A stretch of 64,000 nucleotides of DNA, from contig CP136062.1 in NCBI GenBank assembly GCA_032622095.1, positions 33,604,918-33,668,917 of the forward strand, written 5' to 3'. Every line of letters begins with the position of its first letter. The first letter of the stretch is position 1. Below, one piece after another: positions 11,504 to 59,100 of the stretch. The DNA is from Siphonodentalium dalli (lineage: Eukaryota > Mollusca > Scaphopoda > Gadilida > Siphonodentaliidae). The translations under genes and the position numbers were made by a program. The notes under the pieces are model-generated. The model did no database searches. It was not told where the DNA came from and saw only the letters and a list, made by a program, of their open reading frames with translations.

Positions 11504-11586
11504 ATTTGACCTGCATGTTTCGCTGATGGTTTAGAAACACGCGTGGCACAATGATTTAACCCTTTACCCAATTGAACGGCCCTGTT

Positions 11587-18368: not shown

Positions 18369-18510
18369 GGCAACGTTTATGACGGCAACGAGATGACAAA
18401 GTTCACATCCATCTCAGTTTCTCACAGCTGGAAAATAAAAACAACTCGATATCAGTGAACTGCAATTCATACTTAATATACTTTCTGAGAGAGAGATATA
18501 TATATAGATA
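18369..18510 (-). promoter_or_regulatory. Upstream flank of the GPCR (possible promoter)
   Basis: About 140 bp between the start codon and the foldback at 18511-18612. A GAGA run followed by a TATATATATA stretch at about 18491-18507 could serve as a TATA-like element for minus-strand transcription. This is inferred from position and composition only. Confidence 0.25.
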
Positions 18511-23219: not shown

Positions 23220-24097
23220 AAATATTCAGATAATAAGTTCAACAAACGGCCATAACGTATTATCTGAACATTCCCCTCAATAAATAGGGATTTTTCTGCA
23301 TTTTATATATCTGTCATCTGCTTTTATCACTGTAACACCCCCACCCCCACATGAATGATATACCATTAAAATGTATATACGTTTATAACTGGATGGGAAA
23401 ATCCATTTAGTGTATATAGGGCTAAACGTGATTGGTTACACCCAGAATAGTATATTATTGAACTCATAACTTCTTTTATTCGTATCATAATGCCTCTGAT
23501 ATTATGTATATCGTATGTAAACATGTTTTCTTTCAAACATTGATGTATTGTAAAATAAATAAATGTTTAATCTATCTAAAATGCATTGTGCAGATGTATC
23601 GACGGAATCGCCTAGTTAACCCTAGCGTTCACGACGGGAGCTGCGCTGGTGCAGCATTGAATATGCTGCGCCAGTCTATTCTCTTATATAAAGTATAAAG
23701 CATAGGGTTTCGAAAAAATTCAGGAAGCTCCAGTTATGGACAAACCATTAAAAAATAAGAACGAGATAATTATGGTAACATGATTTAGTTTAGAAGTGGA
23801 CGAAGGCGGTCTAACAACAAATGGGTTTAATCAGAGAAGAACAACATGCATAAGATAATGTAGAAGGGTTGATTGATAGGATGCGGAGTTGAAGAGAGAA
23901 CATGTTGATGCGAATTGGTTGATCGAAAATGAAAATGATGAGAAAACAAATAATTTCAGAAACGTATGAATCAATGTGATGGAAGGGGCGAGTGGGTTAT
24001 CACGCGCCGCTGTGCGTTTATAAAATATCGCAATCAAATCTTTATTTATATTGTTTAACTATAATTGAACAATTGCATAATTTTAACGCAAATCCAC
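23220..24097. other. Non-coding stretch with a small foldback
   Basis: No gene. At 23620-23706, CCCTAGCG and CGATAGGG-like ends (GCATAGGG) surround a 12-bp-stem hairpin (CTGGTGCAGCAT / ATGCTGCGCCAG, 23646-23674). TTAA lies just left (23616-23619) but TTTC just right, so this may be a decayed TTAA-type element. A second small inverted pair (CAGATAATA / TATTATCTG) lies at about 23227-23270. Confidence 0.4.
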
Positions 24098-36000: not shown

Positions 36001-36055
36001 GATGGAGTTGTGTGATGACTATGAGTTTGGTTAATTTACTAGCCTGGGTTGATGG

Positions 36056-39000
36056 AGATGTGTTATGACTATGAGGTTGGTTAATTTACTAGCCCGGGTT
36101 GATGGAGCTGTGTTATGACTATGAGGTTGGTTAATTTACTAGCCTGTGTTGATGGATTTGTGTGATGACTATGAGTTTGGTTAATTTACTAGCCCGGGTT
36201 GATGGAGTTGTGTAATGACTATGAGTTTGGTTAATTGACTAGCCTGTGTTGATGGAGTTGTGTTATGACTATGAGGTTCGTTAATTTACTAGCCTGGGTT
36301 GATGGAGTTGTGTAATGACTATGAGTTTGGTTAATTTACTAGCCTGGGTTGATGGAGATGTGTTATGACTATGAGGTTGGTTAATTTACTAGCCTGGGTT
36401 GATGGAGTTGTGTGATGACTATGAGGTTGGTTAATTTACTAGCCTGGGTTGATGGAGTTGTGTGATGACTATGAGGTTGGTTAATTTACTAGCCTGGGTT
36501 GATGGAGTTGTGTGATGACTATGAGGTTGGTTAATTTACTAGCCTGGGTTGATGGAGTTGTGTGATGACTATGAGTTTGGTTAATTTACTAGCCTGGGTT
36601 GATGGAGTTGTGTGATGACTATGAGTTTGGTTAATTTACTAGCCTGGGTTGATGGAGTTGTGTGATGACTATGAGTTTGGTTAATTTACTAGCCTGGGTT
36701 GACGGAGTTGTGTTATGACTATGAGGTTGGTTAATTTACTAGCCTGGGTTGATGGAGTTGTGTAATGACTATGAGTTTGGTTAATTTACTAGCCTGGGTT
36801 GATGGAGTTGTCTTATGACAATGAGGTTGGTTAATTTACTAGCCTGGGTTGATGGAGTGGTGTTATGACTATGAGGTTCGTTAATTTACTAGCCTGGGTT
36901 GATGGAGTTGGGTGATGACTATGAGGTTGGTTAATTTACTAGCCTGGGTTGATGGAGTTGTGTTATGACTATGAGGTTGGTTAATTTACTAACCTGGGTT
37001 GATGTAGTTGTGTGATGACTATGAGTTTGGTTAATTTACTAGCCTGGGTTGATGGAGTTGTGTTATGACTATGAGATTGGTTAATTTACTAGCTCGGGCT
37101 GATGGAGCTGTGTTATGACTATGAGGTTGGTTAATTTACTAGCCTGTGTTGATGGAGTTGTGTGATGACTATGAGTTTGGTTAATTTACTAGCCTAGGTT
37201 GATGGAGTTGTGTAATGACTATGCGTTTGGTTAATTGACTAGCCTGTGTTGATGGAGTTGTGTTATGACTATGAGGTTCGTTAATTTACTAGCCTGGGTT
37301 GATGGAGTTGTGTAATGACTATGAGTTTGGATAATTTACTAGCCTGTGTTGATGGAGTTGTGTTATGACTATGAGGTTGGTTAATTTACTAGCCTGGGTT
37401 GATGGAGTTGTGTGATGACTATGAGGTTGGTTAATTTACTAGCCTGGGTTGATGGAGTTGTGTGATGACGATGAGGTTGGTTAATTTACTAGCCTGGGTT
37501 GGTGGAGTTGTGTGATGACTATGAGTTTGGTTAATTTACTAGCCTGGGTTGATGGAGTTGTGTGATGACTATGAGGTTCGTTAATTTACTAGCCTGGGTT
37601 GATGGAGTTGTGCTATGACTATGAGGTTGGTTAATTTACTAGCCTGGGTTGATGGAGTTGTGTGATGACTATGAGGTTGGTTAATTTACTAGCCTGGGTT
37701 GATGGAGTTGTGTGATGACTATGAGGTTGGTTAATTTACTAGCCTGGGTTGGTGTAGTTGTGTGATGACTATGAGGTTGGTTAATTTACTAGCATGGGTT
37801 GATGGAGTTGTGTGATGACTATGAGGTTGGTTAATTTACTAGCCTGGGTTGATGGAGTTGTGTAATGACTATGAGGTTGGTTAATTTACTAGCCTGGGTT
37901 GGTGGAGTTGTGTGATGACTATGAGATTGGTTAATTTACTAGCCCGGGTTGATGGAGCTGTGTTATGACTATGAAGTTGGTTAATTTACTAGCCTGGGTT
38001 GATGGAGTTGTGTGATGACTATGAGGTTCGTTAATTTACTAGCCTGGGTTGATGGAGTTGTGTGATGACTATGAGTTTGGTTAATTTACTAGCCTGGGTT
38101 GATGGAGATGTGTTATGACTATGAGGTTGGTTAATTTACTAGCCCGGGTTGATGGAGATGTGTTATGACTATGAGGTTGGTTAATTTACTAGCCCGGGTT
38201 GATGGAGCTGTGTTATGACTATGAGGTTGGTTAATTTACTAGCCTGTGTTGATGGATTTGTGTGATGACTATGAGTTTGGTTAATTTACTAGCCCGGGTT
38301 GATGGAGTTGTGTAATGACTATGAGTTTGGTTAATTGACTAGCCTGTGTTGATGGAGTTGTGTTATGACTATGAGGTTCGTTAATTTACTAGCCTGGGTT
38401 GATGGAGTTGTGTAATGACTATGAGTTTGGTTAATTTACTAGCCTGGGTTGATGGAGATGTGTTATGACTATGAGGTTGGTTAATTTACTAGCCTGGGTT
38501 GATGGAGTTGTGTGATGACTATGAGGTTGGTTAATTTACTAGCCTGGGTTGATGGAGTTGTGTGATGACTATGAGGTTGGTTAATTTACTAGCCTGGGTT
38601 GATGGAGTTGTGTGATGACTATGAGGTTGGTTAATTTACTAGCCTGGGTTGATGGAGTTGTGTGATGACTATGAGTTTGGTTAATTTACTAGCCTGGGTT
38701 GATGGAGTTGTGTGATGACTATGAGTTTGGTTAATTTACTAGCCTGGGTTGATGGAGTTGTGTGATGACTATGAGTTTGGTTAATTTACTAGCCTGGGTT
38801 GACGGAGTTGTGTTATGACTATGAGGTTGGTTAATTTACTAGCCTGGGTTGATGGAGTTGTGTAATGACTATGAGTTTGGTTAATTTACTAGCCTGGGTT
38901 GATGGAGTTGTCTTATGACAATGAGGTTGGTTAATTTACTAGCCTGGGTTGATGGAGTGGTGTTATGACTATGAGGTTCGTTAATTTACTAGCCTGGGTT

Positions 39001-40255
39001 GATGGAGTTGGGTGATGACTATGAGGTTGGTTAATTTACTAGCCTGGGTTGATGGAGTTGTGTTATGACTATGAGGTTGGTTAATTTACTAACCTGGGTT
39101 GATGTAGTTGTGTGATGACTATGAGTTTGGTTAATTTACTAGCCTGGGTTGATGGAGTTGTGTTATGACTATGAGATTGGTTAATTTACTAGCTCGGGCT
39201 GATGGAGCTGTGTTATGACTATGAGGTTGGTTAATTTACTAGCCTGTGTTGATGGAGTTGTGTGATGACTATGAGTTTGGTTAATTTACTAGCCTAGGTT
39301 GATGGAGTTGTGTAATGACTATGCGTTTGGTTAATTGACTAGCCTGTGTTGATGGAGTTGTGTTATGACTATGAGGTTCGTTAATTTACTAGCCTGGGTT
39401 GATGGAGTTGTGTAATGACTATGAGTTTGGATAATTTACTAGCCTGTGTTGATGGAGTTGTGTTATGACTATGAGGTTGGTTAATTTACTAGCCTGGGTT
39501 GATGGAGTTGTGTGATGACTATGAGGTTGGTTAATTTACTAGCCTGGGTTGATGGAGTTGTGTGATGACGATGAGGTTGGTTAATTTACTAGCCTGGGTT
39601 GGTGGAGTTGTGTGATGACTATGAGTTTGGTTAATTTACTAGCCTGGGTTGATGGAGTTGTGTGATGACTATGAGGTTCGTTAATTTACTAGCCTGGGTT
39701 GATGGAGTTGTGCTATGACTATGAGGTTGGTTAATTTACTAGCCTGGGTTGATGGAGTTGTGTGATGACTATGAGGTTGGTTAATTTACTAGCCTGGGTT
39801 GATGGAGTTGTGTGATGACTATGAGGTTGGTTAATTTACTAGCCTGGGTTGGTGTAGTTGTGTGATGACTATGAGGTTGGTTAATTTACTAGCATGGGTT
39901 GATGGAGTTGTGTGATGACTATGAGGTTGGTTAATTTACTAGCCTGGGTTGATGGAGTTGTGTAATGACTATGAGGTTGGTTAATTTACTAGCCTGGGTT
40001 GGTGGAGTTGTGTGATGACTATGAGATTGGTTAATTTACTAGCCCGGGTTGATGGAGCTGTGTTATGACTATGAAGTTGGTTAATTTACTAGCCTGGGTT
40101 GATGGAGTTGTGTGATGACTATGAGGTTCGTTAATTTACTAGCCTGGGTTGATGGAGTTGTGTGATGACTATGAGTTTGGTTAATTTACTAGCCTGGGTT
40201 GATGGAGATGTGTTATGACTATGAGGTTGGTTAATTTACTAGCCCGGGTTGATGG
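36056..40255 (+). repeat. 2,100-bp higher-order repeat, 2 near-identical copies
   Basis: Within the 50-bp satellite, about 36056-38155 and 38156-40255 (42 units each) agree at every position I compared line by line. The agreement includes private variants such as GACGGAGTTG, GGATAATTTACT, TGATGACGATG and AGCATGGG. The copies part only at the ends. Confidence 0.9.
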
Positions 40256-43200
40256 AGCTGTGTTATGACTATGAGGTTGGTTAATTTACTAGCCTGTGTT
40301 GATGGATTTGTGTGATGACTATGAGTTTGGTTAATTTACTAGCCTGGGTTGATGGAGTTGTGTAATGACTATGAGTTTGGTTAATTGACTAGCATGTGTT
40401 GATGGAGTTGTGTTATGACTATGAGGTTCGTTAATTTACTAGCCTGGGTTGATGGAGTTGTGTAATGACTATGAGTTTGGTTAATTTACTAGCCTGTGTT
40501 GATGGAGTTGTGTTATGACTATGAGGTTGGTTAATTTACTAGCCTGGGTTGATGGAGTTGTGTAATGACTATGAGGTTGGTTAATTTACTAGCCTGGGTT
40601 GATGGAGTTGTGTGATGACTATGAGATTGGTTAATTTACTAGCCCGGGTTGATGGAGCTGTGTTATGACTATGAAGTTGGTTAATTTACTAGCCTGGGTT
40701 GATGGAGTTGTGTGATGACTATGAGGTTCGTTAATTTACTAGCCTGGGTTGATGGAGTTGTGTTATGACTATGAGGTTGGTTAATTTACTAGCCTGTGTT
40801 GATGGATTTGTGTGATGACTATGAGTTTGGTTAATTTACTAGCCTGGGTTGATGGAGTTGTGTAATGACTATGAGGTTGGTTAATTTACTAGCCTGGGTT
40901 GATAGAGTTGTGTGATGACTATGAGATTGGTTAATTTACTAGCCCGGGTTGATGGAGCTGTGTTATGACTATGAAGTTGGTTAATTTACTAGCCTGGGTT
41001 GATGGAGTTGTGTGATGACTATGAGGTTGGTTAATTTACTAGCCCGGGTTGATGGAGCTGTGTTATGACTATGAGGTTGGTTAATTTACTAGCCTGTGTT
41101 GATGGATTTGTGTGATGACTATGAGTTTGGTTAATTTACTAGCCTGGGTTGATGGAGTTGTGTAATGACTATGAGTTTGGTTAATTTACTAGCCCGGGTT
41201 GATGGAGCTGTGTTATGACTATGAGGTTGGTTAATTTACTAGCCTGTGTTGATGGATTTGTGTGATGACTATGAGTTTGGTTAATTTACTAGCCTGGGTT
41301 GATGGAGTTGTGTAATGACTATGAGTTTGGTTAATTGACTAGCATGTGTTGATGGAGTTGTGTTATGACTATGAGGTTCGTTAATTTACTAGCCTGGGTT
41401 GATGGAGTTGTGTAATGACTATGAGTTTGGTTAATTTACTAGCCTGTGTTGATGGAGTTGTGTTATGACTATGAGGTTGGTTAATTTACTAGCCTGGGTT
41501 GATGGAGTTGTGTAATGACTATGAGGTTGGTTAATTTACTAGCCTGGGTTGATGGAGTTGTGTGATGACTATGAGATTGGTTAATTTACTAGCCCGGGTT
41601 GATGGAGCTGTGTTATGACTATGAAGTTGGTTAATTTACTAGCCTGGGTTGATGGAGTTGTGTGATGACTATGAGGTTCGTTAATTTACTAGCCTGGGTT
41701 GATGGAGTTGTGTTATGACTATGAGGTTGGTTAATTTACTAGCCTGTGTTGATGGATTTGTGTGATGACTATGAGTTTGGTTAATTTACTAGCCTGGGTT
41801 GATGGAGTTGTGTAATGACTATGAGGTTGGTTAATTTACTAGCCTGGGTTGATGGAGTTGTGTGATGACTATGAGATTGGTTAATTTACTAGCCCGGGTT
41901 GATGGAGCTGTGTTATGACTATGAAGTTGGTTAATTTACTAGCCTGGGTTGATGGAGTTGTGTGATGACTATGAGGTTGGTTAATTTACTAGCCCGGGTT
42001 GATGGAGCTGTGTTATGACTATGAGGTTGGTTAATTTACTAGCCTGTGTTGATGGATTTGTGTGATGACTATGAGTTTGGTTAATTTACTAGCCTGGGTT
42101 GATGGAGTTGTGTAATGACTATGAGTTTGGTTAATTGACTAGCCTGTGTTGATGGAGTTGTGTTATGACTATGAGGTTCGTTAATTTACTAGCCTGGGTT
42201 GATGGAGTTGTGTAATGACTATGAGTTTGGTTAATTTACTAGCCTGTGTTGATGGAGTTGTGTTATGACTATGAGGTTGGTTAATTTACTAGCCTGGGTT
42301 GATGGAGTTGTGTAATGACTATGAGGTTGGTTAATTTACTAGCCTGGGTTGATGGAGTTGTGTGATGACTATGAGATTGGTTAATTTACTAGCCCGGGTT
42401 GATGGAGCTGTGTTATGACTATGAAGTTGGTTAATTTACTAGCCTGGGTTGATGGAGTTGTGTGATGACTATGAGGTTCGTTAATTTACTAGCCTGGGTT
42501 GATGGAGTTGTGTTATGACTATGAGGTTGGTTAATTTACTAGCCTGTGTTGATGGATTTGTGTGATGACTATGAGTTTGGTTAATTTACTAGCCTGGGTT
42601 GATGGAGTTGTGTAATGACTATGAGGTTGGTTAATTTACTAGCCTGGGTTGATGGAGTTGTGTGATGACTATGAGATTGGTTAATTTACTAGCCCGGGTT
42701 GATGGAGCTGTGTTATGACTATGAAGTTGGTTAATTTACTAGCCTGGGTTGATGGAGTTGTGTGATGACTATGAGGTTCGTTAATTTACTAGCCTGGGTT
42801 GATGGAGTTGTGTGATGACTATGAGTTTGGTTAATTTACTAGCCTGGGTTGATGGAGTTGTGTGATGACTATGAGGTTCGTTAATTTACTAGCCTGGGTT
42901 GATGGAGTTGTGTTATGACTATGAGGTTGGTTAATTTACTAACCTGGGTTGATAGAGTTGTGTGATGACTATGAGTTTGGTTAATTTACTAGCCTGGGTT
43001 GATGGAGTTGTGTAATGACTATGAGGTTGGTTAATTTACTAGCCTGGGTTGATGGAGTTGTGTGATGACTATGAGATTGGTTAATTTACTAGCCCGGGTT
43101 GATGGAGCTGTGTTATGACTATGAAGTTGGTTAATTTACTAGCCTGGGTTGATGGAGTTGTGTGATGACTATGAGGTTCGTTAATTTACTAGCCTGGGTT

Positions 43201-43398
43201 GATGGAGTTGTGTTATGACTATGAGGTTGGTTAATTTACTAACCTGGGTTGATAGAGTTGTGTGATGACTATGAGTTTGGTTAATTTACTAGCCTGGGTT
43301 GATGGAGTTGTGTTATGACTATGAGGTTGGTTAATTTACTAGCTCGGGCTGATGGAGCTGTGTTATGACTATGAGGTTGGTTAATTTACTAGCCTGTG

Positions 43399-43409
43399 TT
43401 GATGGAGTT
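43399..43409. repeat. Left target-site duplication of the satellite-borne LINE
   Basis: TTGATGGAGTT, the last forward satellite bases before the inverted segment. The same 11 bases stand at 50167-50177, where the forward satellite resumes. The first four (TTGA) could instead belong to the LINE's ATTGA tail, so the safe core is TGGAGTT. Confidence 0.65.
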
Positions 43410-43508
43410 AACCAACCTCATAGTCATAACACAACTCCATCAACCCAGGCTAGTAAATTAACGAACCTCATAGTCATCACACAACTCCATCAACCCAGGC
43501 TAGTAAAT
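43410..43508 (-). repeat. Inverted 99-bp satellite segment at the LINE 5' junction
   Basis: Two satellite units in reverse orientation. Their reverse complement is identical over all 99 bases to forward satellite at 43134-43232, and equally to 42834-42932. The turn point has the sequence GGAGTTAACC. This is the only inverted satellite I found in either part of the array. Confidence 0.9.
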
Positions 43509-43742
43509 AGAGTTACTTCCCTTGTGACATGTTCGATTAAATTTTCGTTCGTTTATCAACTGCTATTTTCCTCAAAAATGGACCAGCGACACAGTATACA
43601 CCCGTTATCCATTTGATGAAGATTACAAGTAAAATCGTTATTTGATGAAATAATATGTTTGCAACGATATGACTGTGTAATTTGCTGAAGTGCGAATAGC
43701 TCTCCTATTTTCGTCGCAATATAAACACGTGCGTCAACAAGT

Positions 43743-44409
43743 ATGACGACTACAGGTGATAGTACCACCCAAATGATTTCGACAAGTTTAAACAGAGATG
43801 ACTGTAATGTGAAAGATGTTCTAACCTGTATGCAATCTATGAACACAACTATGATAAATAACTTTCAGAAAATTGTAAGTGACCTTCAAGGTTTCAAAGC
43901 AGAGGTAGAAGAAATAAAATCTGCAATGAATACAATCAGTGACGACCATGTTTCTCTCCAAGCAAATGTCACCAAGATGGGGGAGAAAGTGGAAGATATA
44001 GAGACAAATGTAATCCCCAGTGTCTATAATCAACTGAACACGAAACTTGAAAATGTATCAGAGGATCTGATGAAACTTCTTATACACGATCGAAAGTACA
44101 ATCTGCTTGTGTATGGTGTGCCACAACTAAATAATGAGGACCCGTATGAGATAATTCATACTTTTCTTATCAAGGATCTCAATCTTAATATTCAGCTGGC
44201 AACGGGCATTGTCAAAAAAGAGCGTTCGAACTGATCTACCACCATCTCTGAAGCGCGAGAGAGCATTATTGGCAAATACGGCATATGAGCTCAGGAAAAA
44301 CAGGAAACTCAGGACACGCATTAGAGTGGATGGCACCAAAGTAGTCCTTGAAGTTCGTAAGGATTCCACCGTAGCTTGGACAAAATACCATAAACCAGCT
44401 TCTACTTAG
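43743..44409 (+). pseudogene. LINE ORF1 (RNA-binding chaperone), internally deleted
   Basis: The first frame (43743-44234, 163 residues) starts at ATG and has a long coiled coil (about residues 40-110, heptads in QKIVSDLQGFKAEVEEIKSA and beyond), then NLLVYGVPQ, the first strand of the RRM domain of L1-type ORF1 proteins. Near 44207-44215 it breaks. The C-terminal domain (VRTDLPPSLKRERALL onward) is in the +1 frame up to 44409. The middle of the RRM, normally with HRLG and RPIIVRF-like motifs, is absent, so a deletion of roughly 35-40 codons with a frame change is likely. ORF1p would normally coat the element RNA and aid target-primed reverse transcription. This copy probably cannot make a working one. 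Confidence 0.75.
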
Positions 44410-46629
44410 TCATGAAAAGACTACTATCAAGGACACATTATATTTACATGTATCACAATTATGGTGATAAATATAGGAAATTGATTTTTACTTTTCGTCA
44501 TTGAAGACTGTTATAGTATAACAGTATTAGCAATATTGGTCGAACAAGGAAACTTTGGAAAGGAAAACAATTATACAAATATTAAATTTCTGTTATAATC
44601 AGTTATAATGAGAAATTAAAAAAAAAAAAAACACAGTTGAATATTAATTATTGAAAAATTGCTCCTTAAATACTTGACCTATAAATTGTGATATCTAGTA
44701 TTTCATTGCATCATAAGTGTTTGAAATTGATATTTGTCTTAAATTTTTCATTAATTTAGTTGTTACATTGCAACTGCGTGTACTAATAATATGGATCTAC
44801 CATAATGGTGATATCTACATGTAAGTAAAAATCTAATATATCTGAGTTCCTGACAGTATGCAGGTGTTCCAGTTGGCCTTGACCTGAGTATGATGTGCCC
44901 ATGGCTTCCCTTGCTCATGCCTTGGACTTTGCTGGTACTCTTGTCTGGTGTCTGGGAGTTACAAGAATTAAAACTGGGTTACAGTTGGATTATCAAGCTA
45001 TACATGTTACATGGTAACATGGACTGTGTTTTAAATATTGACTAATGTGATACTTTTGTGTTTCTATATTAACTGTTCCAACAGAGTATCGGCTACATAA
45101 TTTCTTCAGCCAGTAGATCTTATGGTACCCAATTTGTTTATTAAACTCCATTATCAGTTACATGGATCGAATGGTAACAAAGTAACAGAATTAATACTGG
45201 AGCAAAACTTACTGTAATATCATTTAAAACGAACAGAGTACTCAAATTTTATTACATATTACTGAGAAATTTATCAGCTGATATAAAACAGGTGTAATTC
45301 TTGTGCATTGCGATATGGTGTTTATGGCTTATTCGTCTCATGACCTCCTTGATTCCACTTGATAACCTTGAACCGACCCCAAAGTAGTACTTCACTTGAA
45401 TGTACTGTCCGCACTCCGCTGAAATGGTCACGCGATAACCATGAACCGACCCCTAATAACATTTACCAAGAATGTACATGAGGCCAGTAAAATTAACTGT
45501 TCGCTCTCGGCCACACTGAATATTACTTTCAGGAGCTCGTTTACAATTATATCATTAGTTTCTGTAACAACTCAATTAAACAAATGAAATGCCAAATAGC
45601 AAAGTGGCATGTTATTCAAGCAACATTTTCTATGTTAAGTTAAGAGTGCTGCATATCAAAACTCAGTATTTCGACAATCCAACTTCCTTAGTGTGACAAT
45701 GAAAGTTTAGTTTTTGAAACCCTGACTAGTTACAACACTATTATTAGTTGTTATTCATATAACCAATTTGCTTATTTATTTGCATTTTCTCAATGCCGAT
45801 GAAGTATTAATCGTTACGTAAACACGTGATTGTTTTTCAATGTATTGTTGACACGGTAATGATTTTACCGGGTGACCGTATTGGTGTGGCCTGTGATATG
45901 ACATTGTTTATTTCTCCACTGTGACCTTCAATGCGACCTATGAGATTACTTGCCGTGTTCGGCTAACGGGGGAACTGTCAATATTCCCGCCACGCGCTGT
46001 CTTAGCCAATGTAAATGAAGCGCAGTTAATTATTTGTTTAAGGCATCAGCTGTTTTTTCGAACAGCCGCTTGTATGAATTGTTCTGGAGTTACCGTTACT
46101 CTAAATAATATCTCTTAGTGCCATAACAGTAATAGCTACTTTGAACATCATTAAAACCTTGGTTATTTAAGTTTACCATTGACCTGAATATGTTTATACC
46201 AGAATTTAAAGGCGCATCTTACTTTCTTTTAAAACGTTAAACGTTTAATTTAACACATAACTATATATTTTAACATGACTCTACATGACAAAAGACTATA
46301 TAACGTAATCCAAATATTTCACATATAATGTAACTATACCATTCAAAGTATTAAACTATTTCAAGTCGCAAAGAAAGCTCACGATATGACCAGTGAGGAA
46401 ATAAGCATGTTGCATATTTATAGCGAAATGCCATCTTACCATCGGGGAGGTATATTATTGTTTTGTATTAGTTATTTGAATAAGTATAACATGATTGTGA
46501 TTCCGATTTATATTCCGACTCTGGGTCTAAATAGACTGTCTCGTCCTGCATTTAATATCTTATTGGTGTTACCAAACCACATTGCCATAGTTATAAAGTT
46601 TTCCATTGAGTGTGGCCTCTTACTTTGTG
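44410..46629 (+). other. 2.2-kb interval between LINE ORF1 and ORF2
   Basis: No frame with recognisable homology. A 13-A run lies near 44619. A diverged 74-bp direct duplication lies at about 45360-45480 (two blocks with GATAACC.TGAACCGACCCC). Small frames at 45921-46118 and 46386-46637 lack known domains. LINEs usually have ORF1 and ORF2 close or overlapping, so this spacer is unusual. It may be family-specific, or sequence acquired by a later insertion whose ends I could not find. Confidence 0.5.
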
Positions 46630-49600
46630 ATGGCTAATCGCAAAACTATAGAGCTTGATGATATAGAAAACAATGATGTTTTTGATTTCTTAGAAACCTA
46701 CCAATCACGTTCAGACGGACTAGAGGGCTCGTGCGATAATCCCATAAATGGATTAGTTCCGACTAAATATTTTTTACCCGAGGAATATAACAATATTGTA
46801 GCCAGAACAAAAAGTCAAGTTTCATTGTTTTCCTTAAATTGTCAAAGTCTCAATGCCAATTGGGATGCTTTCAACACTTTGATTTACGAACTACAAAATA
46901 CGAATGACAAATTTGGAGTCATAGGTCTCACTGAAATATTTCGCACCCCTGATAACATTAATTTCTCATTAGTAGGTTATCATCCTCTCATAAAAAAATG
47001 TAGACCCGATGATGATGATTCAAGAGGGGGCGTTGGGCTTTTCATTAGAGATGACCTGAACTTTAAAATTCGGGAAGATTTATCAATTTTTTTGCCTCAC
47101 GTTTTTGAATCACTCTTCATAGAGATATCCGAACATCATAGAAAGCCGTATATTGTTGGAATTATATACAGACCTAACACTCAGCCAAAGGCTGATATAG
47201 ATAAATTTATCAAAACAATGAAGGAGATAATGACAAAAATTAATTCTGAGCACAAAAAAGGGTTTTTAATGGGTGATTATAATATTGACTTGTTGAAATT
47301 CGGATTACACGTGAAAACAAATGAATTTATTAACTCGTTTTTTGCTGATGGGTTTCTACCAACCATTCTTAGACCGACGAGAGTTACCACATATACTGCC
47401 ACATTGATAGATCAAATACTTACTAATGACCCCTTGATGAGCTTCCAATCGGGTATTGTTATAACCGATGTCAGTGACCATTTTGGTATATTTTATCGGG
47501 AAAAGGCAATTCTCCACAGTCATCAACAGTTAGGAACACAATTACAGAGGAGCTTTTGTGAAGATAATGTATCATGTTTTAAACGTATATTGTCTTCGAC
47601 AAATTATGACTCTGTGTTACATGCATCTAGTCCTGATGGGTCGTATGACTCATTCATGAATCTGTTTTTAAAAGGTTATGATGTTGCCTTTCCTCTTAGA
47701 GTAGTACAAATCAAACGAAAACACATAAAACTAAAGCCTTGGATGACCGGTGGGCTCCTTAAATCGTCTTTGCACAAAGATAAATTATATAGAAAGAAAT
47801 TGAAGAACCCCACTGACGGTAATATTGAACTATATAAGGAGTATTGCAGATACTTTAATCGAATTAAAAGATACAGCAAACGGACATACTATGAGAATAT
47901 TCTGAACTCTTGCAGATCTGACATGAAAAAAACTTGGAACATATTACGCGAAGTCATTCAAAAGAGCAATAAGAAACCTCAATACCCCCACATTTTTGTG
48001 ATTGAAGGGAAACCTATCCACAATAAACAACAAGTGTCTGAAGAATTTAACAAATTCTTCTCAACAATCGGCGAACGCGAAGCAGATAAAATATCGACTA
48101 ACTCTAATATGGATTTCTCTAGCTATCTTGGCCAACCTGAAATTAGAAGTATGTTCGTGCGACCCACCACCGTAGAAGAATTGGGTTATATTGTTAACAA
48201 AATGAAGAATAAACAAAGCAAAGATAACAAGGGGATTTCAGCAGGTTTATTGAAACAAATTATTGAGGAAATTTCAATACCTCTATGTCATATAATAAAT
48301 AATTCATTAGAGGCAGGCATTGTTCCAAAAGAGATGAAAATAGCTAGAGTTATTCCTCTTTTTAAATCGAATGAAAGAAATATGATTCAAAATTATCGTC
48401 CAATTAGTATTCTCCCCACATTTTCTAAAATCCTAGAGAAAGTGGTATGTAACAGGTTAGTGGAATTTTTCCATGATAAATTCTATAAAGAACAATATGG
48501 CTTCCGGAGAGGCCATTCTACAGTTCACCCAATAATCCGACTTCTTAACGACATTGTGATTAATAATGACAAGAAATCAAAAGATTGTACATTAACAACT
48601 TTTATTGACTTCTCAAAAGCTTTCGATACCATAAATCACGATATACTATTATCTAAACTTGAATTTTATGGAGTTCGAGGCAATATAAAACATTGGTTCG
48701 AGAGTTACTTAAGAGATAGAGTGCAATATGTAGATTTAGACGGTTGTGTATCAAGTGAAATCCATATTACAACTGGTGTCCCTCAAGGATCTATCTTAGG
48801 CCCTTTACTTTTTCTTATCTATGTGAATGACATGCACCGGAGTACATCATTATCCCTTTTATCATTTGCAGATGATACCACTGTTTATGCGTCTCATCAT
48901 AATTTAGATTTACTTTTTAAGCGCACAAATATTCAACTTGAATTACTCAATAAATGGTGCAAGGCTAACAAACTGTCATTAAATGCCAAGAAAACCAAAT
49001 ATATTTTATTTCAACCAACTGGTGGAAACTATAATTGCACGAAACATACTCTACAGATAAATGGTCAAATAATTGAAAGAATAGGAAGCAACTGCAAAGA
49101 AAAATCCTTCAAATTCCTTGGTATTCATCTCGACGAAAATTTAACATTCAACAACCACACAGCTTTAATTGCAACAAGAATGTCTAGAGCTCTATATGCA
49201 ATTAACAGAGTTAAACACATTCTTCCAGAAAGGAATTTACGACAGTTGTATTACAGTCTAATTCATAGTCACCTAACATATGGCATAGAAATTTGGGGAA
49301 ATTCGAATACGTTTAATAAATTAATAGTATTGCAGAAAAAGGCAATTCGCATTATACATAATAAAAGATATAACAGCCACACCGATCCACTTTTCAAAAA
49401 AAGTAATATACTAAAAGCTCACGATCTTTATAAATTACGCACCTATCAATTCATGAACGATTGGTTCTGCAACCAACTACCTATCTCATTTCAGAACACT
49501 TATCGCATATACCACAACCCAACAATGGTAACAAGACAAAGTGGCAAATTAGGTGGAACAAAATCTAGAACATCCTTTACCGAAAACCTTCCTTACCATA

Positions 49601-49779
49601 TCTTCCCGAAACTTTGGAAAGAACTAGATACATCTTTACAGTTAGTTTTACCACGTTCCAAATTTAAACGAGACGTATCTGAAGATATCATAAGCAGCTA
49701 TCTTGACAGTGTTCTTTGTAAAAACCTATACTGTTTCGACTGTTATCCGTTCATGGATGAATCAACTTTATATATGTAA
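46630..49779 (+). CDS. LINE ORF2: endonuclease and reverse transcriptase, intact
   Basis: 1049 residues from the ATG at 46630; the open frame extends 24 nt further upstream but without an ATG. The endonuclease spans about residues 60-290: N70 in SLNCQSL, E102 in LTEIF, GDYNID at 215-220 and VSDHF at 281-285 supply the catalytic set that nicks target DNA. The RT spans about 550-800: NYRPISILP (588-596), YGFRRGHST (623-631), FIDFSKAFD (658-666, catalytic D660), TGVPQGSILGPLLF (715-728), FADDT (746-750, catalytic D748 and D749). Then KLSLNAKKTKYILF and FLGIHLDENL of the thumb, and a C-terminal region with HLTYGIEIWG (881-890) and a Cys-rich end (CKNLYCFDC). No stop or frameshift and every catalytic residue is present, so the enzyme may be functional although its ORF1 partner is broken. 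Confidence 0.93.
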   Translation: MANRKTIELDDIENNDVFDFLETYQSRSDGLEGSCDNPINGLVPTKYFLPEEYNNIVARTKSQVSLFSLNCQSLNANWDAFNTLIYELQNTNDKFGVIGLTEIFRTPDNINFSLVGYHPLIKKCRPDDDDSRGGVGLFIRDDLNFKIREDLSIFLPHVFESLFIEISEHHRKPYIVGIIYRPNTQPKADIDKFIKTMKEIMTKINSEHKKGFLMGDYNIDLLKFGLHVKTNEFINSFFADGFLPTILRPTRVTTYTATLIDQILTNDPLMSFQSGIVITDVSDHFGIFYREKAILHSHQQLGTQLQRSFCEDNVSCFKRILSSTNYDSVLHASSPDGSYDSFMNLFLKGYDVAFPLRVVQIKRKHIKLKPWMTGGLLKSSLHKDKLYRKKLKNPTDGNIELYKEYCRYFNRIKRYSKRTYYENILNSCRSDMKKTWNILREVIQKSNKKPQYPHIFVIEGKPIHNKQQVSEEFNKFFSTIGEREADKISTNSNMDFSSYLGQPEIRSMFVRPTTVEELGYIVNKMKNKQSKDNKGISAGLLKQIIEEISIPLCHIINNSLEAGIVPKEMKIARVIPLFKSNERNMIQNYRPISILPTFSKILEKVVCNRLVEFFHDKFYKEQYGFRRGHSTVHPIIRLLNDIVINNDKKSKDCTLTTFIDFSKAFDTINHDILLSKLEFYGVRGNIKHWFESYLRDRVQYVDLDGCVSSEIHITTGVPQGSILGPLLFLIYVNDMHRSTSLSLLSFADDTTVYASHHNLDLLFKRTNIQLELLNKWCKANKLSLNAKKTKYILFQPTGGNYNCTKHTLQINGQIIERIGSNCKEKSFKFLGIHLDENLTFNNHTALIATRMSRALYAINRVKHILPERNLRQLYYSLIHSHLTYGIEIWGNSNTFNKLIVLQKKAIRIIHNKRYNSHTDPLFKKSNILKAHDLYKLRTYQFMNDWFCNQLPISFQNTYRIYHNPTMVTRQSGKLGGTKSRTSFTENLPYHIFPKLWKELDTSLQLVLPRSKFKRDVSEDIISSYLDSVLCKNLYCFDCYPFMDESTLYM

Positions 49780-50166
49780 GAATTGTTAAGTGAATCCAAC
49801 GCATGTACGCCCATTATGTGTGAAGAATACAACTATATCATCAGTCTTATATTATACCAAAATTTATATTATATATCATAATTGAACGATATTTTACTGA
49901 ATTGCCACTTAGGCTATGGAAAAAACTAAACCACAAAAGTATCGTTGTCTACACTACTATAGATAAAAAAAAAAACTTGTATCACCATTATATACTGTCA
50001 TTTGGGATCAGAGTCGGAATATAATTATCTAAGTTTGGGAGAGTGCAGGAAGACGACCAGTAGGTCATGCCATCTCCCAGTAATATATACTATATTTTGT
50101 TTGATTTTTGTATTATACATTATCATGTTTGTTATATATTACTAAATAAAATTGAATTGAATTGAA
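49780..50166 (+). other. LINE 3' UTR with (ATTGA)n tail
   Basis: 387 bp from the ORF2 stop to the satellite. An AATAAA signal at 50145-50150 is followed at once by four ATTGA units (50151-50170), the last of which merges with the satellite's own TTGATGG. Such short-repeat tails are where the reverse transcriptase starts copying in several LINE groups. Confidence 0.8.
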
Positions 50167-50177
50167 TTGATGGAGTT
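50167..50177. repeat. Right target-site duplication of the LINE
   Basis: TTGATGGAGTT, matching 43399-43409. It begins the resumed forward satellite. Confidence 0.65.
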
Positions 50178-53100
50178 GTGTGATGACTATGAGTTTGGTT
50201 AATTTACTAGCCTAGGTTGATGGAGTTGTGTAATGACTATGCGTTTGGTTAATTGACTAGCCTGTGTTGATGGAGTTGTGTTATGACTATGAGGTTCGTT
50301 AATTTACTAGCCTGGGTTGATGGAGTTGTGTAATGACTATGAGTTTGGTTAATTTACTAGCCTGTGTTGATGGAGTTGTGTTATGACTATGAGGTTGGTT
50401 AATTTACTAGCCTGGGTTGATGGAGTTGTGTGATGACTATGAGTTTGGTTAATTTACTAGCCTGGGTTGATGGAGTTGTGTGATGACTATGAGGTTGGTT
50501 AATTTACTAGCCTGGGTTGGTGGAGTTGTGTGATGACTATGAGTTTGGTTAATTTACTAGCCTGGGTTGATGGAGTTGTGTGATGACTATGAGGTTCGTT
50601 AATTTACTAGCCTGGGTTGATGGAGTTGTGCTATGACTATGAGGTTCGTTAATTTACTAGCCTGGGTTGATGGAGTTGTGTGATGACTATGAGGTTGGTT
50701 AATTTACTAGCCTGGGTTGATGGAGTTGTGTGATGACTATGATGTTGGTTAATTTACTAGCCTGGGTTGGTGTAGTTGTGTGATGACTATGAGGTTGGTT
50801 AATTTACTAGCATGGGTTGATGGAGTTGTGTGATGACTATGAGGTTGGTTAATTTACTAGCCTGGGTTGATGGAGTTGTGTTATGACTATGAGGTTGGTT
50901 AATTTACTAGCCTGGGTTGATGGAGTTGTGTAATGACTACGAGTTTGGTTAATTTACTAGCCTGGGTTGATGGAGTTGTCTTATGACAATGAGGTTGGTT
51001 AATTTACTAGCCTAGGTTGATGGAGTTGTGTAATGACTATGCGTTTGGTTAATTGACTAGCCTGTGTTGATGGAGTTGTGTTATGACTATGAGGTTCGTT
51101 AATTTACTAGCCTGGGTTGATGGAGTTGTGTAATGACTATGAGTTTGGTTAATTTACTAGCCTGTGTTGATGGAGTTGTGCTATGACTATGAGGTTGGTT
51201 AATTTACTAGCCTGGGTTGATGGAGTTGTGTAATGACTATGAGTTTGGTTAATTTACTAGCCTGTGTTGATGGAGTTGTGTTATGACTATGAGGTTGGTT
51301 AATTTACTAGCCTGGGTTGATGGAGTTGTGTGATGACTATGAGGTTGGTTAATTTACTAGCCTGGGTTGATGGAGTTGTGTGATGACTATGAGGTTGGTT
51401 AATTTACTAGCCTGGGTTGATGGAGTTGTGTGATGACTATGAGTTTGGTTAATTTACTAGCCTGGGTTGATGGAGTTGTGTGATGACTATGAGTTTGGTT
51501 AATTTACTAGCCTGGGTTGATGGAGTTTTGTGATGACTATGAGTTTGGTTAATTTACTAGCCTGGGTTGATGGAGTTGTGTTATGACTATGAGGTTGGTT
51601 AATTTACTAGCCTGGGTTGATGGAGTTGTGTAATGACTATGAGTTTGGTTAATTTACTATCCTGGGTTGATGGAGTTGTCTTATGACAATGAGGTTGGTT
51701 AATTTACTAGCCTGGGTTGATGGAGTGGTGTTATGACTATGAGGTTCGTTAATTTACTAGCCTGGGTTGATGGAGTTGGGTGATGACTATGAGGTTGGTT
51801 AATTTACTAGCCTGGGTTGATGGAGTTGTGTTATGACTATGAGGTTGGTTAATTTACTAACCTGGGTTGATAGAGTTGTGTGGTGACTATGAGTTTGGTT
51901 AATTTACTAGCCTGGGTTGATGGAGTTGTGTTATGACTATGAGGTTGGTTAATTTACTAGCTCGGGCTGATGGAGCTGTGTTATGACTATGAGGTTGGTT
52001 AATTTACTAGCCTGTGTTGATGGAGTTGTGTGATGACTATGAGTTTGGTTAATTTACTAGCCTAGGTTGATGGAGTTGTGTAATGACTATGCGTTTGGTT
52101 AATTGACTAGCCTGTGTTGATGGAGTTGTGTTATGACTATGAGGTTCGTTAATTTACTAGCCTGGGTTGATGGAGTTGTGTAATGACTATGAGTTTGGTT
52201 AATTTACTAGCCTGTGTTGATGGAGTTGTGTTATGACTATGAGGTTGGTTAATTTACTAGCCTGGGTTGATGGAGTTGTGTGATGACTATGAGGTTGGTT
52301 AATTTACTAGCCTGGGTTGATGGAGTTGTGTGATGACTATGAGGTTGGTTAATTTACTAGCCTGGGTTGGTGGAGTTGTGTGATGACTATGAGTTTGGTT
52401 AATTTACTAGCCTGGGTTGATGGAGTTGTGTGATGACTATGAGGTTCGTTAATTTACTAGCCTGGGTTGATGGAGTTGTGCTATGACTATGAGGTTGGTT
52501 AATTTACTAGCCTGGGTTGATGGAGTCGTGTGATGACTATGAGGTTGGTTAATTTACTAGCCTGGGTTGATGGAGTTGTGTGATGACTATGAGGTTGGTT
52601 AATTTACTAGCCTGGGATGGTGTAGTTGTGTGATGACTATGAGGTTGGTTAATTTACTAGCATGGGTTGATGGAGTTGTGTGATGACTATAAGGTTGGTT
52701 AATTTACTAGCCTGGGTTGATGGACTTGTGTGATGACTATGAGGTTGGTTAATTTACTAGCCTGGGTTGATGTAGTTGTGTGATTACTATGAGGTTGGTT
52801 AATTTACTAGCCTGGGTTGATGGAGTTGTGTGATGACTATGAGGTTGGTTAATTTACTAGCCTGGGTTGATGGAGTTGTGTGATGACTATGAGTTTGGTT
52901 AATTTACTAGCCTGGGTTGATGGAGTTGTGTGATGACTATGAGTTTGGTTAATTTACTAGCCTGGGTTGATGGAGTTGTGTGATGACTATGAGTTTGGTT
53001 AATTTACTAGCCTGGGTTGATGGAGTTGTGTTATGACTATGAGGTTGGTTAATTTACTAGCCTGGGTTGATGGAGTTGTGTAATGACTATGAGTTTGGTT

Positions 53101-56100
53101 AATTTACTAGCCTGGGTTGATGGAGTTGTCTTATGACTATGAGGTTGGTTAATTTACTAGCCTGGGTTGATGGAGTCGTGTGATGACTATGAGGTTGGTT
53201 AATTTACTAGCCTGGGTTGATGGAGTTGTGTGATGACTATGAGGTTGGTTAATTTACTAGCCTGGGATGGTGTAGTTGTGTGATGACTATGAGGTTGGTT
53301 AATTTACTAGCATGGGTTGATGGAGTTGTGTGATGACTATAAGGTTGGTTAATTTACTAGCCTGGGTTGATGGAGTGGTGTTATGACTATGAGGTTCGTT
53401 AATTTACTAGCCTGGGTTGATGGAGTTGGGTGATGACTATGATGTTGGTTAATTTACTAGCCTGGGTTGATGGAGTTGTGTTATGACTATGAGGTTGGTT
53501 AATTTACTAACCTGGGATGATAGAGTTGTGTGATGACTATGAGTTTGGTTAATTTACTAGCCTGTGTTGATGGAGTTGTGTTATGACTATGAGGTTGGTT
53601 AATTTACTAGCCTGGGTTGATTGAGTTGTGTGATGACTATGAGGTTGGTTAATTTACTAGCCTGGGTTGGTGGAGTTGTGTGATGACTATGAATTTGGTT
53701 AATTTACTAGCCTGGGTTGATGGAGTTGTGTGATGACTATGAGGTTCGTTAATTTACTAGCCTGGGTTGATGGAGTTGTGTAATGACAATGAGGTTCGTT
53801 AATTTACTAGCCTGGGTTGATGGAGTTGTGCTATGACTATGAGGTTGGTTAATTTACTAGCCTGGGTTGATGGAGTTGTGTGATGACTATGAGGTTGGTT
53901 AATTTACTAGCCTGGGTTGATGGAGTTGTGTGATGACTATGAGGTTGGTTAATTTACTAGCCTGGGTTGATGTAGTTGTGTGATGACTATGAGGTTGGTT
54001 AATTTACTAGCATGGGTTGATGGAGTTGTGTGATGACTATGAGGTTGGTTAATTTACTAGCCTGGGTTGATGGAGTTGTTTGATGACTATGAGGTTGGTT
54101 AATTTACTAGCCTGGGTTGATGTAGTTGTGTGATGACTATGAGGTTGGTTAATTTACTAGCATGGGTTGATGGAGTTGTGTGATGACTATGAGGTTGGTT
54201 AATTTACTAGCCTGTGTTGATGGAGTTGAGTGATGACTATGTGGTTGATTAATTTACTTGCCTGGGTTGATGGAGTTGTGTGAAGACTATGAGGTTGGTT
54301 AATTTACTAGCCTGGGTTGATGGAGTTGTGTTATGACTATGAGGTTGGTTAATTTACTAGCCTGGGTTGATGGAGTTGTGTTATGACTATGAGGTTCGTT
54401 AATTTACTAGCCTGGGTTGATGGAGTTGTGTTATGACTATGAGGTTCGTTAATTTACTAGCCTGGGTTGATGGAGTTGTGTGATGACTATGAGGTTGGTT
54501 AATTTACTAGCCTGGGTTGATGGAGTTGTGTGATGACTATGAGGTTGGTTAATTTACTAGCCTGGGTTGATGGAGTTGTGCTATGACTATGAGGTTCGTT
54601 AATTTACTAGCCTGGGTTGATGGAGTTGTGTGATGACTATGAGGTTGGTTAATTTACTAGCCTGGGTTGTTGGAGTTGTGTGATGACTATGGGGTTGGTT
54701 AATTTACTATCCTGGGTTGATGGAGTTGTGTGATGACTATGAGGTTGGTTAATTTACTAGCCTGGGTTGATGGAGTTGTGTTATGACTATGAGGTTCGTT
54801 AATTTACTACCCTGGGTTGATGGAGTTGTGTGATGACTATGAGGTTGGTTAATGTACTAGCCCGGATTGATGGAGTTGTGTGATGACTATGAGTTTGGTT
54901 AATTTACTAGCCTGGTTTGATGGAGTTGTGTGATGACTATGAGGTTGGTTAATTTACTAGCCTGGGTTGATGGAGTTGTGTGATGACTATGAGTTTGGTT
55001 AATTTACTAGCCTGGGTTGATGGAGTTGTGTGATGACTATGAGGTTGATTAATTTACTAGCCTGGGTTGATGGAGTTGTGTGATGACTATGAGTTTGGTT
55101 AATTTACTAGCCTGGGTTGATGGAGTTGTGTTATGACTATGATGTTCGTTAATTTACTAGCCTGTGTTGATGGAGTTGTGTGATGACTATGATGTTGGTT
55201 AATTTACTAGCCTGGGTTGATGGAGTTGTGTGATGACTATGAGGTTGGTTAATTTACTAGCCTGGGTTGATGGAGTTGTGTTATGACTATGAGGTTGGTT
55301 AATTTACTAGTCTGGGTTGGTGGAGTTGTGTGATGACTATGAGGTTGATTAATTTACTAGCCTGGGTTGATGTAGTTGTGTTATGACTATGAGGTTGGTT
55401 AATTTACTAGCCTGGGTTGATGGAGTTGTGTGATGACTATGAGGTTGGTTAATTTACTAGCCTGGGTTGATGGAGTTGTGTGATGAGTATGAGGTTGGTT
55501 AATTTACTAGCCTGGATTGATGGAGTTGTGTGATGACTATGATTGTGGTTAATTTACTAGCCTGGGTTGATGGAGTTGTGTGATGACTATGAGGTTGGTT
55601 AATTTACTAGCCTGGATTGATGGAGTTGTGTTATGACTATGAGGTTGGTTAATTTACTATCCTGGGTTGATGAAGTTGTGTTATGACTATGAGGTTGGTT
55701 AATTTACTAGTCTGGGTTGATGGAGTTGTGTGATGACTATGAGGTTGGTTAATTTACTAGCCTGGGTTGATGGAGTTGTGTAATGACTATGAGGCTGGTT
55801 AATATACTAGCCTGGGTTGATGGAGTTGTGTGATGACTATGAGTTTGGTTAATTTACTAGCCTGGGTTGATGGAGTTGTGAGATGACTATGAGGTTGGTT
55901 AATTTACTATACTGGGTTGATGGAGTTGTGTTATGACTATGATTGTGGTTAATTTACTAGCCTGGGTTGTTGGAGTTGTGTGATGACTATGAGGTTCGTT
56001 AATTTACTAGCCTGGGTTAATGGAGTTGTGTGATGACTATGAGGTTGGTTAATTTACTATCCTGGGTTGATGGAGTTGTGTTATGACTATGATTGTGGTT

Positions 56101-59100
56101 AATGTACTAGCCTGGGTTGATGGAGTTCTGTGATGACTATGAGGTTGGTTAATTTACTAGCCTGGGTTGATGGAGTTGTGTTATGACTATGAGGTTGGTT
56201 AATTTACTAGTCTGGGTTGATGGAGTTGTGTGTTGACTATGAGGTTGGTTTATTTACTAGCCTGGGTTGATGTAGTTGTGTTATGACTATGAGGTTGGTT
56301 AATTTACTAGCCTGGGTTGATGGAGTTGTGTAATGACTATGAGGTTCGTTAATTTACTAGCCTGGGTTGATGGAGTTGTGTGATGACTATGAGGTTGGTT
56401 AATTTACTAGCCTGGGTTGATAGAGTTGTGTGATGACTATGAGGTTGGTTAATTTACTAGCCTGGGTTGAAGGAGTTGTGTTATGACTATGAGGTTGGTT
56501 AATTTACTAGCCTGGGTTGATGGAGTTGTGTGAAGACTAAGAGTTTGGTTAATTTACTAGCCTGGGTTGATGAAGTTGTGTGATGACTATGAGGTTCGTT
56601 AATTTACTAGCCTGGATTGATGGAGTTGTGTTATGACTATGAGGTTCGTTAATTTACTAACCTGGGTTGATGGAGTTGTGTGATGACTATGAGGTTCGTT
56701 AATTTACTAGCCTGGGTTGATGGAGTTGTGTTATGAATATGATTGTGGTTAATTTACTAGCCTGGGTTGATGGAGTTGTGTAATGACTATGAGGTTGGTT
56801 AATTTACTAGCCTGGGTTGATGGAGTTGTGTGATGACTATGAGGTTCGTTAATTTACTAGCCTGGGTTGATGAAGTTGTGTGATGACTATGAGGTTCGTT
56901 AATTTACTAGCCTGGGTTGATGGAGTTGTGTTATGACTATGAGGTTCGTTAATTTACTAGCCTGGGTTGATGAAGTTGTGTTATGAATATGAGGTTGGTT
57001 AATTTACTAGCCTGTGTTGATGGAGTTGTGTGATGACTATGAGGTTGGTTCATTTACTAGCCTGGGTTGATGAAGTTGTGTTATGACTATGAGGTTGGTT
57101 AATTTACTAGCCTGTGTTGATGGAGTTGTGTGATGACTATGAGTTTGGTTAATTTACTAGCCTGGGTTGATGGAGTTGTGTATTGACTATGAGTTTGGTT
57201 AATTTACTAGCCTGGGTTGATGGAGTTGTGTAATGACTATGAGTTGGGTTAATTTACTAGCCTGGGTTGATGGAGTTGTGTGATGACTATGAGGTTGGTT
57301 AATTTACTAGCCTGGGTTGATGGAGTTGCGTGATGACTATGAGGTTGGTTAATTTACTAACCTGGGTTGATTAAGTTGTGTAATGACTATGAGGTTGGTT
57401 AATTCACTAGCCTGGGTTGATGGGTTGATGGAGTTGTGTGATGACTATGAGGTTCGTTAAATTACTAGCCTGGGTTGATGGAGTTGTGTGATGACTATGA
57501 GGTTCGTTAATTTACTAGCCTGGATTGATGGAGTTGTGTTATGACTATGATTGTGGTTAATTTACTAGCCTGGGTTGATGGAGTTGTGTTATGACTATCA
57601 GGTTCGTTAATTTACTAGCCTGGGTTGATGGAGTTGTGTTATGACTATGAGGTTGGTTAATTTACTAGCCTGGGTTGATGGAGTTGTGTGATGACTATGA
57701 GGTTGGTTAATTTACTAGCCTGGGTTGATGGAGTTGTGTGATGACTATGAGGTTGGTTAATTTACTAGCCTGGGTTGATGGAGTTGTGTGATGACTATGA
57801 GGTTGGTTAATTTACTAGCCTGTGTTGATGGAGTTGTGTGATGACTATGAGGTTCGTTAATTTACTAGCCTGGATTGATGGAGTTGTGTTATGACTATGA
57901 GGTTCGTTAATTTACTACCCTGGGTTGATGGAGTTGTGTGATGACTATGAGGTTGGTTAATGTACTAGCCCGGATTGATGGAGTTGTGTGATGACTATGA
58001 GTTTGGTTAATTTACTAGCCTGGTTTGATGGAGTTGTGTGATGACTATGAGGTTGGTTAATTTACTAGCCTGGGTTGATGGAGTTGTGTGATGACTAAGA
58101 GTTTGGTTAATTTACTAGCCTGGGTTGATGGAGTTGTGTGATGACTATGAGGTTGATTAATTTACTAGCCTGGGTTGATGGAGTTGTGTGATGACTATGA
58201 GTTTGGTTAATTTACTAGCCTGGGTTGATGGAGTTGTGTTATGACTATGATGTTCGTTAATTTACTAGCCTGTGTTGATGGAGTTGTGTGATGACTATGA
58301 TGTTGGTTAATTTACTAGCCTGGGTTGATGGAGTTGTGTGATGACTATGAGGTTGGTTAATTTACTAGCCTGGGTTGATGGAGTTGTGTTATGACTATGA
58401 GGTTGGTTAATTTACTAGTCTGGGTTGGTGGAGTTGTGTGATGACTATGAGGTTGATTAATTTACTAGCCTGGGTTGATGTAGTTGTGTTATGACTATGA
58501 GGTTGGTTAATTTACTAGCCTGGGTTGATGGAGTTGTGTGATGACTATGAGGTTGGTTAATTTACTAGCCTGGGTTGATGGAGTTGTGTGATGACTATGA
58601 GGTTGGTTAATTTACTAGCCTGGATTGATGGAGTTGTGTGATGACTATGATTGTGGTTAATTTACTAGCCTGGGTTGATGGAGTTGTGTGATGACTATGA
58701 GGTTGGTTAATTTACTAGCCTGGATTGATGGAGTTGTGTTATGACTATGAGGTTGGTTAATTTACTATCCTGGGTTGATGGAGTTGTGTTATGACTATGA
58801 GGTTGGTTAATTTACTAGTCTGGGTTGATGGAGTTGTGTGATGACTATGAGGTTGGTTAATTTACTAGCCTGGGTTGATGGAGTTGTGTAATGACTATGA
58901 GGCTGGTTAATATACTAGCCTGGGTTGATGGAGTTGTGTGATGACTATGAGGTTGGTTAATTTACTAGTCTGGATTGATGGAGTTGTGTGATGACTATGA
59001 GGTTGGTTAATTTACTATACTGGGTTGATGGAGTTGTGTTATGACTATGATTGTGGTTAATTTACTAGTCTGGGTTGTTGGAGTTGTGTGATGACTATGA

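Follow-up and report, generated by a model that had tools for sequence, protein, structure and literature searches.

Long interspersed nuclear elements (LINEs) such as L1, L2, CR1 and their relatives integrate by target-primed reverse transcription. These elements carry a second open reading frame (ORF2) for an endonuclease and reverse transcriptase, are flanked by a short target duplication, end in a family-specific 3′ tail and have 5′-truncated relatives. A LINE with all of these features interrupts a 50-bp satellite array in the stretch of Siphonodentalium dalli DNA analysed here (the window, 64 kb; C2:33604918-33668917, part of a 2.23-Gb assembly in nine contigs). It differs from the elements named above in having about 2.2 kb between its open reading frames. 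The similarity of satellite units makes insertion sites among them difficult to read. At this locus the order of unit variants restores the empty site to the base, within a 4-bp ambiguity at the tail, and these variants also indicate the vicinity in which an inverted satellite filler at the LINE 5′ end probably had its template.

Polymerase-theta end joining makes templated insertions, short copies of nearby flank whose junction shows about 2 bp of microhomology, as in the window; 99 nt, the length of the filler, is long for one of them. Twin-primed, 5′-inverted L1 copies also have an inverted segment between the left duplication and the sense LINE, with short microhomology at the 5′ junction, but the inverted segment in the window is target satellite and not derived from the element. 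The 5′ junction of 5′-inverted human L1 depends on microhomology, with 2–5 bp in about 70% of cases, and does so more than the inversion junction (PMC2912911); the 5′ junction of the window LINE has 2 bp, which is within chance. Dual priming at the upper nick with a second L1 RNA has been proposed and is unproven (PMC2837659). It shares with our case a second template annealed to the upper-strand end, the difference being that this template is a second L1 RNA there and satellite here. L1 insertions are known in human alpha-satellite higher-order repeats (PMC13174521). These too are LINEs in a satellite higher-order array, with a different organism, LINE and satellite, and the accessible part of that report describes no inverted segment for them. 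LINEs with a tail of 5-nt repeats are represented by the UnaL2 type, in which the repeat is TGTAA (PMC3747384) rather than the AATTG found here. In the open-licence literature we found no description of target satellite lying inverted at the 5′ junction of a LINE, which is not proof of absence. A LINE within a satellite higher-order array is thus already known, and the worth of this locus lies in the exact reconstruction and in the inverted local filler, seen once.

Reconstruction of the empty site

Tandem Repeats Finder and a unit scan trace the plus-strand satellite from about 24.1 kb to the right end of the window, in a left part (24097..43409) and a right part (50167..64000) separated by a single large interruption, from 43409 to 50167. 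The satellite is also present in all three stretches sampled past the right end of the window (L036–L038; 24 kb in total, the last two stretches lying 10 kb apart). Its left part ends at 43409 with TTGATGGAGTT, and its right part restarts at 50167 with the same TTGATGGAGTT. We joined the left flank up to 43409 to the right flank from 50178 and slid this query along the window. With 60 + 60 bp, the joined flanks matched without a mismatch at junctions 34710, 35310, 37160, 39260 and 52028. At 110 + 110 bp the same five places remained, and the next place had 6 mismatches. The closest empty paralogue, at junction 52028 to the right of the LINE (51918..52137, plus strand like the other four), has 0/220 mismatches; a single mismatch separates the query from the paralogues at 39260 (39150..39369), 37160 (37050..37269) and 34710 (34600..34819), and two from that at 35310 (35200..35419).

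The original prediction had placed the LINE in one specific copy of a higher-order block and had named uninterrupted copies of that block at 39191–39360 and 37091–37260 and near-copies at 34641 and 35241. It had offered the alignment of the joined flanks as a possible refutation, and the insertion passes it, with 0–2 mismatches in 220 at five places. The four places named correspond to junctions 39260, 37160, 34710 and 35310; the closest, 52028, was absent from the list. In all five the flanks join without a gap, which bears out the claim that no other target sequence was lost.

An exact fit of short flanks means little in an array of near-identical units. Random non-contiguous pairs of array cuts fitted as well as the observed pair in 1486 of 20000 draws at 60 bp, falling to 109 at 110 bp, 130 at 150 bp and 35 at 200 bp, whereas truly contiguous cuts reached the observed fit in 378/645, 237/641, 288/640 and 222/637 cases at the same lengths. 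Agreement over 60 bp alone is therefore weak and agreement over 110–200 bp firm, because the chance level lies below 1% from 110 bp onwards; the earlier argument that the order of variants secures continuity holds at these lengths.

Over longer distances the picture is less simple, and several observations count against a straightforward match between the flanks and one block. The fit of the joined flanks drops with length, to 6–9 mismatches in 600 at 300 + 300 bp and 24–31 in 1000 at 500 + 500 bp, and at 2000 + 2000 bp the best place is 37410, outside the five paralogues. From −231 bp outwards, the left flank has differences that recur across the blocks: at 231, 285, 302 and 315 against all five, and at 249, 281 and 301 against four. 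The left flank thus tracks the block for about 230 bp only and is mosaic on that side. Within 500 bp on the right, mismatches number 3 for 52028, 4 for 37160 and for 39260, 10 for 35310 and 11 for 34710. The blocks at 37160 and 39260, which lie 2100 bp apart, are themselves identical from about −1115 to +998, a recent duplication within the array. The alignments confirm that the LINE went into one identifiable copy of the higher-order block with a short target duplication and no visible loss of target; the evidence for the empty site consists of empty paralogues within the array, not of empty alleles.

When overlaps of 0–259 bp were scanned with 120 + 120 bp of flank, an overlap of 11 bp gave 0/240 mismatches and no other length gave fewer than 7. 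The overlap scan places the left copy of the duplication, TTGATGGAGTT, at 43399..43409 and the right copy at 50167..50177, both on the plus strand, and the 3′ tail of AATTG repeats at 50150..50170 (plus strand), with its final TTGA common to the target. The 11-bp duplication predicted earlier is therefore the sole clean overlap, but its length is properly 7–11 bp, because its first four bases, TTGA, also extend the tail. In the consensus 50-bp unit, a 4-base continuation of the tail in the observed phase occurs at one plus-strand position, which is the insertion site, and at no minus-strand position; with any phase allowed it occurs at two plus-strand positions and one minus-strand position. 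Annealing of the RNA tail to the target would fit an insertion position that continues the tail, as judged from one event.

Inverted satellite at the 5′ junction

The interruption had been read as LINE throughout. Comparison with the empty paralogues and with other copies of the family, together with the unit scan, shows that positions 43410..43508 are instead 99 bp of satellite on the minus strand, lying between the left duplication and the LINE and outside the LINE family. The insert therefore starts at 43410 and the LINE at about 43509; from there on the earlier reading stands. Against 656 plus-strand units, the window holds a single clean minus-strand match and one more that overlaps the junction, and in L036–L038 inverted units number 0 against 474 plus units.

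The reverse complement of the 99-mer occurs exactly at 43134, 42834, 42434, 41634 and 40684, all to the left of the insertion and within 2.7 kb. The nearest candidate template is 43134..43234 on the plus strand, which comprises the 99 bp plus the 2 bp of junction microhomology. All five exact copies fall among the 53 in-phase 99-mers of 40684–43409; the remaining 593 in-phase 99-mers of the window include none, and neither do L036–L038. In the five empty paralogues, the corresponding segments are 2–3 bases different from the 99-bp segment. From this distribution we hold with moderate confidence that the template of the inverted segment would have been local and to the left of the insertion. 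At the junctions themselves, microhomology amounts to 2 bp between flank and inverted segment and 0 bp between inverted segment and LINE. One other copy, L031, has three further bases in common, AAT, just ahead of the family start, so that up to 3 bp of microhomology is possible at the second junction.

A number of points tell against a local origin of the filler or limit what can be made of it. With one mismatch, the 99-mer recurs at 12 more positions of the window, 8 of them to the left of the LINE and 4 to the right, and at no fewer than 15 places in L036–L038, and a single later mutation could therefore mask another source. An exact copy in the near-left stretch also exists for 52 of the 593 far 99-mers, 43 of all 646 99-mers have an exact copy as near as 177 bp, and the 2.7-kb limit of the near stretch was chosen after the copies had been seen. 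The five exact template candidates are indistinguishable, and 2 bp of microhomology arises by chance about once in 16. A fold-back DNA template in cis presupposes that about 276 nt of the left flank were single-stranded, which is itself hypothetical. In 12 of the 20 LINE copies fetched, the 5′ junction was searched for an inverted copy of local DNA within 500 bp of flank; the longest was 13 bp and none exceeded its own control range. The inverted satellite filler is therefore one example.

Mechanism of insertion and alternatives

In our judgement a young LINE probably inserted here by target-primed reverse transcription, with the upper-strand end first copying local satellite in a manner resembling twin or dual priming. 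The tail, the duplication and the LINE call for nothing beyond standard target-primed reverse transcription. The lower strand would have been nicked to the left of TTGATGGAGTT and complementary DNA (cDNA) primed from the AATTG-repeat tail, and the upper strand would have been nicked after GGAGTT. Before engaging the LINE cDNA, the 3′ end of the upper strand would have annealed through 2 nt (TT with AA) to satellite running in the same direction and been extended along it for 99 nt, most likely in the adjacent left flank, for example at 43134–43232. The copied end would then have been joined to the 5′ end of the near-full-length LINE cDNA; an equivalent jump of the cDNA is an alternative to extension of the upper strand. 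Candidate templates are the adjacent strand itself, folded back, another DNA copy close by and a satellite transcript, and we tentatively favour fold-back or local DNA copying over satellite RNA. The insertion itself is of the ordinary kind, and the inverted segment looks like a trace of how it was sealed.

The most probable of the other readings, although we regard it as unlikely, is a satellite transcript as template. Here the nicked upper-strand end would have annealed to a sense satellite transcript, from which the LINE reverse transcriptase copied 99 nt. The product would be the same, a 2-nt microhomology is common in 5′-inverted L1 (PMC2912911), and a second RNA has been proposed in the dual priming of L1, a proposal that its authors call speculation (PMC2837659). 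A DNA template explains the local match at least equally well. Were an RNA template correct, the locus would be a natural case of dual priming in which the second template was not a LINE, and would preserve a trace of past satellite transcription in the germline. Less likely still is 5′ transduction, in which a source LINE lying in this satellite in the opposite orientation was transcribed from the satellite upstream and carried the 99 bp in its RNA. Such a history predicts exactly the order seen, inverted satellite followed by a near-full-length LINE, and the inverted satellite does join at or near the family 5′ end. However, none of the four other full-length copies fetched has satellite ahead of it (for L031 and L022 the upstream DNA in view is limited to 33 and 51 bp), and none of the fetched loci described below contains a satellite unit. 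An inverted array is also absent from the 64-kb window and the 24 kb sampled beyond it. In the DNA searched, exact copies of the segment occur only in the local left flank, although far segments match there by chance at the rate given above.

We give little credence to an inversion that pre-existed in the array or arose later, unconnected with the LINE. Inversions do occur in satellite arrays, but this segment is bounded by the left duplication on one side and the LINE on the other, clean joins of the flanks exist without it in five places, and other inverted units are absent from the sampled array. Least credible is an artefact of assembly or of a fold-back read at the left junction. Assembly of satellite arrays is difficult and fold-back reads do occur, but such a read should stay in inverted satellite and not switch to the LINE start after 99 bp. 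Under the preferred reading of local copying by the upper-strand end, the locus makes visible a step of LINE insertion that is hard to observe. The approach, which combines paralogous empty sites with the private variants of the filler, is repeatable on any assembled satellite array.

The LINE and its other genomic copies

The element, at 43509..50166 on the plus strand, comprises a 5′ untranslated region (UTR), ORF1, an inter-ORF stretch of about 2.2 kb, ORF2, a 3′ UTR and the tail. ORF2 (46630..49779, plus strand) is open for 1049 amino acids from the ATG at 46630 and matches the reverse transcriptase domain PF00078 (5e-40) and the endonuclease/exonuclease/phosphatase-type domain PF03372 (3.8e-07) in Pfam. 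Together with the multiple copies that share a 3′ end and with the target site duplication, these domains identify it as a LINE, that is, a non-LTR (long terminal repeat) retrotransposon. ORF1 (43743..44234, plus strand) encodes 163 amino acids, because the window copy has lost 158 bp at about 44212, with a 2-bp ambiguity at the break; the four further full-length copies that were fetched encode 274. Splicing was ruled out as the cause of this gap, since no placement of it has GT and AG at its ends. With ORF2 open but ORF1 broken, the window copy is not autonomous as it stands.

A genome search with ORF2, in which 40 of 1422 candidates were scored, returned at least 46 matching rows; these include the window copy, and some copies are split over several rows. 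We fetched 20 loci for comparison. Of these, 18 end at the equivalent of 50161–50166 with varied 5′ ends; L022 and L031 stop earlier. Four copies, L017, L018, L022 and L031, are full length and begin at the equivalents of 43513, 43509, 43512 and 43506, each preceded by unrelated DNA (518, 450, 51 and 33 bp in view, respectively). This common 5′ end of independent copies marks the window LINE as a full-length member of the family. Satellite was found at the 5′ end of 0/4 of the other full-length copies; the inverted segment therefore belongs to the window insertion and not to the family, and 5′ transduction is ruled out as a family feature. No satellite unit occurs anywhere in the 20 fetched loci (the best match has 22 mismatches in 50), which leaves satellite-specific targeting unsupported. 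A nested insertion was likewise ruled out as the source of the 2.2-kb inter-ORF stretch, as matching blocks in all four full-length copies cover the region.

The window LINE is young, being 99.5–99.9% identical to L017 and L018 in long matches. L018 has an 8-bp duplication with 7 extra bases between duplication and element, and L023 a 10-bp duplication with 13 extra bases; the target duplication is indistinct in most other copies examined. Two copies with different flanks, L016 and L019, both start in the BLAST alignment at the equivalent of 46407, 223 bp ahead of ORF2, which suggests a second, shorter LINE RNA that starts at a 5′ end of its own. In L020, L022 and L031, part of the inter-ORF equivalent of 44641–45099 is matched twice, and in the window copy once, consistent with a tandem duplication in those three. 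L027, L028 and L029 represent the same LINE insertion at three places of contig C3 with nearly the same flanks, and the DNA around it has probably been duplicated.

The best protein relatives of ORF2 are about 45% identical, with names missing or uninformative among the 120 listed of 205, and among solved structures it matches L1 ORF2 and R2 proteins best, too little to assign a clade. A search of genome contigs gave seven loci in prokaryotic records, in part probably eukaryotic contamination. The AATTG-repeat tail is absent from the displayed stretches of these loci, and the end of L004 is loosely similar (AATAAA-TGAATT). Viral contigs contained no ORF2 relative and no match to a 29-base satellite pattern. 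Within the element, an inverted repeat (46508–46532 and 50000–50024) is of similar strength to other pairs in the same list, and tests for a stable structure in the 3′ UTR gave unremarkable z scores of −1.1 and −1.6. Searches for tRNA genes, and for Rfam families at gathering score, found none.

Surrounding sequence

The left edge of the satellite array is formed by divergent units at 24097–24660. In its right part, two identical 58-bp variant units, 8 bp over the normal length, lie 3558 bp apart at 57367–57424 and 60925–60982. Two other tandem arrays lie to the left of the satellite: one of about 103 copies of a 33-bp unit with 97% matches (3449–6839) and one of about 24 copies of a 30-bp unit with 83% matches (992–1709). 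Remnants of a different LINE-like element, its reverse transcriptase split across two frames, occupy 8408–11530 on the minus strand. An open frame at 17289–18413, also on the minus strand, contains a rhodopsin-family seven-helix receptor domain.

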